Shown piece after piece: positions 36,109 to 39,125 of a stretch of DNA of 40,926 nt. Under the pieces are notes generated by a model. It did not search any database. It was given only the letters and a program-made list of their open reading frames with translations, and was not told the origin of the DNA. A program made the position numbers and the translations under genes. Origin of the DNA: Treponema sp. (GTDB taxonomy: Bacteria; Spirochaetota; Spirochaetia; Treponematales; Treponemataceae). The stretch is taken from positions 1 to 40,926 of the forward strand of contig JAAYQG010000144.1 in NCBI GenBank assembly GCA_012519415.1, written 5' to 3'. Within the stretch, counting starts at the first letter, position 1, and every line of letters starts with the position of its first letter.

Positions 36109-37107
36109 TCAAACCTCTTTCATGCAACAGCGATAAAGTAGCCATGCAAAAATAATCAGTCCCAAAGCAATCCACAAGCATACTGAACCATAAGATTTAT
36201 TCACGTTTATCATTCTAAAACTTTGAGCTACATCTTGCTTTTTTACAATTTCTGCAAGACTGTTTGATAAAGTAGCAGTATTTTCTGCACCAAAATATGC
36301 TCCTCCAGAAAGTTGTGCTAAATTTATTAGCTTGGTTTCATCAAAAGAAGAATCCAAATAACCAGATTTAACTGTATTTGTAACAGGATCAACATATTCT
36401 ACGGGCACCATTCCTTTTGTGCCGATTCCAACTATAAAAAGATTAATTCCAAAACTATTTGCTAATTTTGCAGCAGTATTAGGATGAATTTCGCCAGCAT
36501 TATTTTCACCGTCTGTAATAAGCACAATACATTTTTTCGGAGCTTTTGTCTGTGCAATATGATAAACAGCTGTGCTCAAACCTGTTCCAATAGCTGTGCC
36601 GTCCCCTAATTCGCCAATAACAAGAGAATTTAATCTATCGATAAAAGATTTATGGTCAACTGTAACAGGTACGATTAAAGCTGCATCTAAAGAAAGAGCA
36701 ACAAGCCCAAAAGAAGCACCGTTTGTTTTTTGAACAATTTGCATTATCGTTTCTTTTGCAATTTCCAGTCTATTTTCATTTTGCATATCGCGGGCTGCCA
36801 TAGATGGACTTGTATCAATTACAAACATTATTTCAGTTCCGCGACTTGTGTAAACTTTTTTTTGATGTGACACGACGGGTGAACAAATTGCAATAATAGT
36901 AAGAATAAGTGCCGATATTGTTGCAAAATACGCCAAAAAAAACACAAATCGAATACGTTTTGATGAAAAGCTGAAAGTTTTGCCGCCCCAATCGCTTAAA
37001 ACAAGCGGCAATGTAAACAATTTAAAAATGCCAAAATGGCGCAGCACAAAATATAGAGGCAAAAGCAGAAGCAGTAAAAGCCCCGCAGGATATTCAAAAT
37101 GAAACAT
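36109..37107 (-). CDS. batA: VWA-domain membrane protein BatA
   Basis: MIDAS DTSPS in IMFVIDTSPSMAARD; GDGTAIGTGLSTAV; flanking TM segments. Confidence 0.9.
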   Translation of the reverse strand: MFHFEYPAGLLLLLLLPLYFVLRHFGIFKLFTLPLVLSDWGGKTFSFSSKRIRFVFFLAYFATISALILTIIAICSPVVSHQKKVYTSRGTEIMFVIDTSPSMAARDMQNENRLEIAKETIMQIVQKTNGASFGLVALSLDAALIVPVTVDHKSFIDRLNSLVIGELGDGTAIGTGLSTAVYHIAQTKAPKKCIVLITDGENNAGEIHPNTAAKLANSFGINLFIVGIGTKGMVPVEYVDPVTNTVKSGYLDSSFDETKLINLAQLSGGAYFGAENTATLSNSLAEIVKKQDVAQSFRMINVNKSYGSVCLWIALGLIIFAWLLYRCCMKEV

Positions 37108-37111
37108 TTTT

Positions 37112-37285
37112 CTCCCATAAAAAGTCAATGAGGAAGTTTCAACTTCCGAATTGAGTTTTTAGCGCACTTTCGCAATGAAATGAGAAAGTGCAGTGAATAA
37201 ACAAGTTTGCGACGCAAACTTGGGAACGAAAACTTTGACGCTATTTCCGGCAAAGTTTTCGTTAGCCACTCCCATAAAAAGTCAA
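37112..37285. repeat. Multi-hairpin array bounded by 17-bp direct repeats
   Basis: CTCCCATAAAAAGTCAA at 37112-37128 and 37269-37285; inverted repeats at 37133-37146, 37164-37191, 37202-37222 and 37227-37261, read directly. Confidence 0.9.
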
Positions 37286-37311
37286 CAAGCAAGGCGACTT
37301 TCTATATCAAA

Positions 37312-38421
37312 TTACATAGCAACAGACAAAGCCTGTTCAGGAAGATTCATTGGTTTATAAGTTCCAATCATCCTTGCTGAATCAAACTCTGTTTTTGCAG
37401 TGAGCAACGCCCATACAATTTCTGCTACTTTTCTGGCTCCGGAAATTATTGATTTTCCAGAACCTTTGTTTTTTTTCATATATTCATAACGTTGCATCAT
37501 TCTCCAAGACTTGGTATCCTTGCAACGTCTCATTCCCATAAACAACTGTACGAATGCAGTTCTCAACTCAACAGGTCCATGTCTAGTTATACTTCCATGA
37601 TGAACAGTCTCATTAGAATCCCTGACTTTTGGGACAAGTCCACTAAAGGATGCATATTTCTTTGAATTTGAAAATCTCGAAATATCCTCTGTGTATGCCC
37701 TTATAATCCATGCTGTGATTTTTCCACAGCCTCGAATTGTCAAAAGCAGTTTTACCATATCATCATCTTTTGTCAGTTCTTCCAGTTGCTTTTCGATTAT
37801 CTTTATCTTTTCTGCAAAAGTATCTATAATATCAAGCATCAGTTTTACTGATTGTGCCTCGAGCACGTAGTCGTTATTCGACTCAAGGGCGTCCAGAACC
37901 TTCTGGCGCCCTTTCTTACTTTGTAAGCTTCTGGGCTCATCTGACAAGCCTAAACTTACCAAAAGTGCATGTATTTCATTTTTCTGCCCAACTTGAGCAC
38001 GAACAAGTCTTTCACGTGACTTTATAAGGCGTCTCATGTTTTCTGTTTCTTTACTGCACAGATAACTCTGTGGAAGTTTATAGTCTTTTAGAAACTCTGA
38101 TAAAGTTGCCGCATCATGCTTGTCGGTCTTTGATACAGATTCATTTATTACCTTAAACTTCACTGTGTTTACTACAATCACTTCTGCTCCAGCTTTTTCC
38201 ATCTGATTCTTGAAATGTTTTGTGTTTCCTGTAGATTCAACAGCCAACTTTACAACTGCTCCCGTTGCCTTATAAGTCCTGATTCTTTTGCAAAACTCAG
38301 CGTATCCTATTTCTGTTGTAGGATACATCCTGATTTCGTTCATGGACTCAATCTTTTCTTCTGTTCTTACATGAACTGTAAACTGTGTTTTGTGTAAATC
38401 AACACCAACGTAAAATGTCAT
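37312..38421 (-). CDS. IS110-family transposase (DEDD RuvC-like domain plus IS116/IS110/IS902 domain)
   Basis: VGVDLHKTQFTVHV, LAVESTGN, KTDKHDAATLSEFL; C-terminal LLTIRGCGKITAWIIRAYTEDISRFSNSKKYASFSGLVP ... HHGSITRHGPVELRTAFVQ. 369 aa, intact. Confidence 0.97.
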   Translation of the reverse strand: MTFYVGVDLHKTQFTVHVRTEEKIESMNEIRMYPTTEIGYAEFCKRIRTYKATGAVVKLAVESTGNTKHFKNQMEKAGAEVIVVNTVKFKVINESVSKTDKHDAATLSEFLKDYKLPQSYLCSKETENMRRLIKSRERLVRAQVGQKNEIHALLVSLGLSDEPRSLQSKKGRQKVLDALESNNDYVLEAQSVKLMLDIIDTFAEKIKIIEKQLEELTKDDDMVKLLLTIRGCGKITAWIIRAYTEDISRFSNSKKYASFSGLVPKVRDSNETVHHGSITRHGPVELRTAFVQLFMGMRRCKDTKSWRMMQRYEYMKKNKGSGKSIISGARKVAEIVWALLTAKTEFDSARMIGTYKPMNLPEQALSVAM

Positions 38422-38661
38422 TTTGACCTCCGTATGATTTTGTGCGGAAAGTCTAATAGGTTATGTGTTCCATTCTGCTTGAAGCTTCGCTGCAGTTACC
38501 CATTCAGTCCTCAAAGGACTACTTTATGATGCGGCTGATAGCTCTTCATTCTCCCATCCAGAGGTCATGCCTCTACTAAAAATGCCGAACTAACGCCTGG
38601 TTTCCGCTAAATCACTTTAGCATATCACATATCCTCTTGCTCGTTTGCTTTTTTATCACGC
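38422..38661 (-). ncRNA. Candidate IS110 bridge RNA region (5' non-coding end of the element)
   Basis: Hairpins on this segment: GCTAAA-N4-TTTAGC (38606-38621), AGAGG-N5-CCTCT (38560-38574), AGTCCT-N3-AGGACT (38506-38520), CTGC...GCAG (38475-38495). The position upstream of the transposase matches bridge RNA in IS110-group elements. Confidence 0.55.
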
Positions 38662-39125
38662 CTCCCATAACATAACTATAACGCCATTTTCCATATATTT
38701 CATTATTTTTCACTGCTGTCTAAAATAAATAGACTTTTTAAAGCCGATTTCTGTGATATTTGTTAATTACACTCATAAATCAATATAACATAAGGAAATC
38801 GGATATGAATAAATGAGCCACTTGCAAAAGTCTAAAAAAGCAAGGTAAGGTACTAAAAAAAGTTTCCAAATGTTGTAAAATTTGATTGAAAAAAAACAAA
38901 CAACAAAAGAAAACTTAGTATGAATAATTTAATACAAAGCATAGATGAATGACATCACACAATTTTTTACCACCGTTTGTTGTTTATTCTAATTTGAAAA
39001 CGTACCGACAAATAGCAATGGACAATAGTGATAGAGCTAGTTATTTAATTAATTTTTAATTATGGTGTATAAAACTTGATTTAATATATAATAATAACTA
39101 AAAACGTTTGCAGGAGGTCTGTTTT

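Follow-up and report, generated by a model that had tools for sequence, protein, structure and literature searches.

The window, i.e., the whole 40,926-nucleotide stretch analysed here (contig JAAYQG010000144.1 of a Treponema-like draft genome, G000), encodes a single IS110-family transposase on the minus strand (37312-38421), lying within an inserted element of about 1393 bp (37269..38661, minus strand). The gene is intact, and its 369-amino-acid product, a DEDD recombinase, contains both the DEDD_Tnp_IS110 (PF01548) and the Transposase_20 (PF02371) domains that define the IS110 family sensu lato. It scores 204 bits against NCBIfam NF033542 (cut-off 140); the assignment also draws on the IS621 and ISCro4 structures, and residues D8, E62, D100, D103, and S269 are in place when read against the known DEDD/Ser motifs. 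About 240 nt of non-coding DNA precede the gene and about 40 nt follow it. No second copy of the element was found in the draft assembly. The motif CTCCCAT (ATGGGAG on the transposase strand) occurs at 37112, 37269, 38551, and 38662, exactly as an initial annotation of the sequence had listed. As a bare 7-mer it is found five times in the whole window against an expected 2.05, and 8 of 100 shuffles reach five, which is hardly above chance; its meaning therefore had to come from comparison, and the evidence presented here is positional and comparative. The sites have been assigned to a guide in the target loop of an RNA (38551), the left target (38662), the right end of the element (37269), and the right end of a neighboring 157-bp repeat (37112).

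The leader upstream of the transposase encodes a putative conserved bridge RNA with two guide loops, as the initial annotation had supposed from an intact transposase gene standing behind a structured non-coding stretch. The leader folds better than 200/200 shuffled sequences (z = -2.85), and the RNA core (38459..38634, minus strand) is closed by a stem running from GGATATGTG to CACATAACC. The closing stem, a 5' hairpin, and two stem-loops with internal loops are common to 20 upstream regions, including those of Thiospirochaeta perfilievii (50% protein identity) and of one order-level relative (58%). Within this set, two-sided changes are present at 14 of 35 pairs (5.7 +/- 1.6 in shuffles, none of 500 reaching 14). 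Moreover, 92.1% of cells pair, compared with 33-43% in slid controls, although this percentage is favored by the tested structure having been fixed manually on one sequence of the set. In these two distant sequences the closing stem pairs poorly as aligned. A search of the window against Rfam at the gathering threshold returned no match.

The boundaries of the element were delineated by comparison. One scan of bacterial genomes yielded 14 related loci, nearly all from Treponema, which constitute an unselected set. Their upstream regions align with the window leader, conservation starting at GAGGC(A/G)TGATAAAA, while on the downstream side CGTTGACTTTTTATGGGAG marks the end and the sequences diverge beyond it (L074 has a variant end). 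The ends of other copies had been named beforehand as a test, and the relatives do share the same ends. The register of the inserted DNA is ambiguous within the shared ATGGGAG, and its extent (about 37269-38661) was taken from the precise uninterrupted sites of a ten-copy relative described below. The left target ATGGGAG (38662..38668, minus strand) is the remaining Shine-Dalgarno half of the target, whereas the right end ATGGGAG (37269..37275, minus strand) corresponds to a sequence that acts as a new Shine-Dalgarno sequence in the relatives. An ATG follows the right end within 12 nt in 13 of the 14 relatives; in the fourteenth, L068, the right end is followed by a repeat of the miniature inverted-repeat transposable element (MITE) type. 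A wider search located the exact right end at 73 places, 67 of which have an ATG at a distance of 2-12 nt (5-7 nt being most frequent), yet as it took only genomes chosen for at least one such place, 13/14 is the cleaner figure. Left flanks of the relatives read AAAGGAG, CAAGGAG, ATGGGAG, and similar. The element is always co-directional with the downstream gene, both in the 14 relatives and in further copies. IS900, another IS110-family element, differs in that its transposase is directed against the host gene. The target is predicted, from sequence, to be a Shine-Dalgarno sequence plus a nearby ATG, a site that the right end TTTTTATGGGAG would rebuild before the host gene, and the recognized sequence first put forward has to be corrected to this site. 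Transposase genes are broken or truncated in L061, L068, L069, L070, and L143, where the right end and the downstream start codon are both kept.

The predicted target guide, ATGGGAG (38551..38557, minus strand), occupies the 3' side of the target loop. The same loop position elsewhere contains AAAGGAG, CAAGGAG, and so on, tracking the left flank in 29 elements: guides agree with their own left flank at 6.45 of 7 positions, compared with 5.47 when flanks are permuted, and the observed agreement is attained in 0/20,000 permutations. The agreement holds with multi-copy genomes collapsed. GGAUGGGAG, which had been proposed as a guide segment, behaves as a target guide both in this set and in the copies of the ten-copy relative; the companion expectation that all insertion sites share TATGGGAG held in a different form, as not all sites share it and each follows the guide of its own element. 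The 5' side of the target loop, GCATTTTTAGT (38575..38585, minus strand), includes CAT, the complement of the start codon, which is nearly invariant in the relatives. This side (CAU plus about 5 nt) may read the ATG; it shows no covariation with the flank, so that this role is an inference. In a tree of full-length relatives, the window copy falls outside the well-supported AAAGGAG-guided clade, while its position relative to the ten-copy element is poorly supported (0.36); the sole hint of independent guide switching comes from features of the RNA that L061 and L068 also have.

The most informative relative resides in the complete genome G080, which contains ten copies of an element with GAATGGGAG and the same seven-base guide, ATGGGAG, as the window element. 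Eight copies are located at ATGGGAG; the other two are at ATAGGAG, where pairing could rely on G-U, and an ATG lies 5-7 nt past the right end in all ten. Searching sister genomes with the joined flanks of six sites recovered four of them in uninterrupted form (e.g., ..TTTTAATGGGAG|ACAACATG.., 98% identity), according to which insertion is precise and occurs after ..GGAG. Insertion of this kind, site-specific, in a single orientation, and duplicating no more of the target than a short core, is characteristic of the IS110 family. Two copies, L168 and L172, seem to sit inside reading frames at GGGAG-N5/6-ATG with an ATG that is not a start codon, suggesting that recognition depends on sequence and not on the context of translation.

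The second loop is predicted to recognize the element itself. Its 3' side, the donor guide GAATGGG (38499..38505, minus strand), matches the right end of the element, so that the initial proposal of one motif as both target and donor sequence stands for the target guide, the right end being matched instead by this separate loop. The 3' side reads GAATGGGAG with right end ATGGGAG in Treponema and GAATAGGAG with right end ATAGGAG in Thiospirochaeta; the guide and the right end change together, in few independent cases. The 5' side (GCATCATAAAGT, 38521..38532, minus strand) matches the left end only partially, through ATCAT. In most relatives it is AUCAUAC, a full match to left ends GTATGAT and a 6/7 match to GCATGAT. 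In the window copy, L068, and L080, the donor loop is broken, following GGG or GGGA, by an extra hairpin of about 22 nt (38477-38498 in the window); it may form a multi-loop like those reported for IS1111 RNAs.

Very probably, the element is an IS110/IS1111-type insertion sequence guided by RNA, with an upstream-encoded bridge RNA programmed for translation-initiation sites. In the proposed mechanism, the target loop would recognize the Shine-Dalgarno half of the target through its 3' side (AUGGGAG in this copy), with precise insertion after ..GGAG, and the 3' side of the donor loop would recognize the element's own right end, TTTTTATGGGAG; comparison of the relatives shows both matches and the precise insertion. 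Recombination may proceed via a circular intermediate with an AG (CT) core. Insertion would part the host leader from its gene but, as the right end is itself a Shine-Dalgarno sequence, would supply an equivalent ribosome-binding site, as a rule at 5-7 nt from the ATG. The rebuilt site could be used again, potentially giving rise to stacks of elements and MITEs before one gene. As the target guide and the donor end of the window copy are both ATGGGAG, this copy would be programmed for sites like its own and for MITE right ends.

Several observations weigh against this interpretation. The guides of L062, L063, and L171 match the left flank at just 2-5 of 7 positions; the 5' target guide did not covary with the start-codon (right) flank at any of eight offsets (p 0.14-0.78); the present right flank of the window copy is a MITE, not a gene start; and the extra hairpin in this copy displaces bases that would pair with the core. 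Because it is single in a draft genome and has this displacement in the donor loop, the window copy may be weak or inactive, and its activity is uncertain.

Two other explanations of the leader were weighed. It might be a regulatory 5' untranslated region or encode a leader peptide, ATGGGAG recurring as a common Shine-Dalgarno-like word near genes. The 7-mer is indeed barely enriched in the window, and ATGGGAGAATGAAG is readable as a start site; nevertheless, a conserved leader peptide was rejected, as the short frame is not kept between relatives, the helices covary, and the guide varies along with the left flank (ATGGGAG-guided copies choosing ATGGGAG and AAAGGAG-guided ones AAAGGAG), making this alternative extremely improbable. 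It is also very unlikely, if marginally more credible, that the guide resembles the flank through copying or gene conversion into the element, or through a Shine-Dalgarno word favored by the genome, rather than through selection by the RNA. GGAG is common to all sites, and a genome-wide bias could account for some agreement; however, the matching word was already present before insertion at uninterrupted sites (L172, L152), and ten identical copies in one genome combine one guide with ten unrelated flanks.

The repeat abutting the right end of the element (37112..37268, minus strand) is a MITE-like sequence of 157 bp with four hairpins (also at loci L010-L029) and the right end TTGACTTTTTATGGGAG. 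The CTCCCAT noticed in the batA leader is present at 37112 as described, yet it is the end of this separate repeat and not a part of the element. The repeat and the element have a 17-nt right end in common. The repeat signature occurs 67 times in the window genome and not at all in seven congeners; the copies form tandem arrays with a period of about 157, the last unit standing directly before a start codon in 12 of 13 arrays inspected. Related repeats are found in other treponemes, with tens per genome in the sisters of G080, and short elements with the same right end were noted at L105 (G086), L132 (G180), L139/L140 (G228), L144 (G256), and L152-L180 (G080). TTTTTATRGGAG followed by ATG is found 1-49 times per genome, compared with 0-3 for the reversed pattern. 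Elsewhere among the treponemes, TTTTTATRGGAG immediately precedes the ATG of tens of genes in each genome. At least four of the ten G080 copies stand at the right end of a repeat. The idea that ATGGGAG guides are confined to MITE-rich genomes was not supported, since such ends are numerous in AAAGGAG-guide genomes as well.

The repeats may be passengers of such elements. They could instead be an older host repeat, similar to repetitive extragenic palindromic (REP) elements, that happens to be targeted. The abundance of hairpins and the targeting of REP elements by IS621 (PMC11208160) would fit this origin, as would the left ends of the window-genome repeats (TTGCAACGAAAAC and the like), which do not match the donor guide of the window element; it is for this last reason that passenger mobilization of the MITEs is put forward as a proposal. 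On the other hand, the repeats possess the element's 17-nt right end, face the starts of genes, occur as tandem arrays, and are missing from the seven congeners, and the left ends of the G080 repeats (ATATGATAAACAG) match the donor guide at 6 of 7 positions. A host-derived origin is rather unlikely, though it retains appreciable weight. A broader scenario, in which bridge-RNA elements and the non-autonomous MITEs they mobilize constitute a genome-wide system replacing ribosome-binding sites in treponemes, can be advanced tentatively and with slightly less than even confidence: tens of genes per genome would use a transposon-supplied Shine-Dalgarno sequence, elements would stack by rebuilding their target, and some guides would have switched to the elements' own ends.

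The gene next to the repeat is batA-like (36109..37107, minus strand), with its true start at the ATG at 37107, 4 nt after the MITE GGGAG; orthologs in the genus start at the same residue and lack the 157-bp repeat. Both sides of the target loop fit TTATGGGAG-AAAAATG before batA. The element likely entered at this site, the repeat then entering the rebuilt one, with the order of events being conjectural. On its left, the element is flanked (38665-38800) by a 136-bp copy, 99% identical, of the promoter/leader of another gene (G000:C169:634-769, L010), the uninterrupted site of which reads TTATGGAGGGATTTATG. As batA also lacks its usual upstream operon partner, the locus must have undergone rearrangement.

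These results suggest that genomes reveal the target specificity of a bridge recombinase in this case, a reading backed by natural guide switching and by uninterrupted sites. Nearly every gene has a site of the predicted kind, and the element end restores it, which would explain low-cost insertion before genes; the shared right end is a candidate for MITEs mobilized by a bridge RNA. The guide that explains the target, its natural variation together with the site, the rebuilding of the Shine-Dalgarno sequence, the hybrid architecture, and the right end shared with MITEs appear to be new: no report of these five points was found in the open-access literature, most subscription journals lying outside the search. 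Searches of this literature on IS110 elements of Treponema, MITEs of the IS110 family, and bridge RNAs acting at ribosome-binding sites likewise turned up nothing directly relevant.

By its sequence features, the element is a presumptive hybrid, combining IS1111-type ends and guide order with an upstream guide RNA as in IS110, and thus bears on the relation of the two groups. In IS621, the bridge RNA is encoded upstream of the recombinase and has a 5' hairpin and two stem-loops with internal loops (PMC11208160). The DEDD recombinase, the upstream RNA gene, the long left and short right ends, and a variable first (target) and conserved second (donor) loop are shared with this group. Unlike IS621, which has a REP target and no or very short subterminal inverted repeats, the present element has long ones and a Shine-Dalgarno plus ATG target. 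The IS621-like guide order assumed in the initial annotation proved wrong, as the loop carries the guide to the left target on its 3' side here and on its 5' side, ahead of the top-strand guide, in IS621. The subterminal inverted repeats of 20-21 bp (left, 38636..38656, minus strand; right, 37274..37293, plus strand) change together between relatives and have extensions of 7 bp on the left, including the AG core, and 3 bp on the right. Such repeats and extensions, with the bottom-strand guide second, are features of the IS1111 group with its seekRNAs (e.g., ISEc11, ISPa11, and ISKpn4; PMC11187229). Here the bottom-strand guide is clearly 3', and the top-strand match 5' of it is read from the conserved CAT only. 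In contrast to that group, the guide RNA is located upstream, not downstream, of the transposase; ISMtsp17 is one close IS1111 relative named with an upstream region (PMC11187229). The GL-P----S motif of the transposase does not discriminate the IS1111 clade, as IS621 has it too. Like bridge RNAs and seekRNAs, the predicted RNA is structured, with target and donor loops covarying with the target and the element ends (the donor loop in few independent cases). The kind of target is not new, since IS900 of Mycobacterium avium subsp. paratuberculosis (IS110 family) targets translation-initiation signals according to PMC8141618 (citing Doran 1997), its motif CATGNNNNNNTCTCCTT being the complement of a Shine-Dalgarno sequence plus ATG. 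That article describes no guide for IS900; the Treponema element and its relatives carry a candidate one and appear to rebuild the Shine-Dalgarno sequence with their right end.
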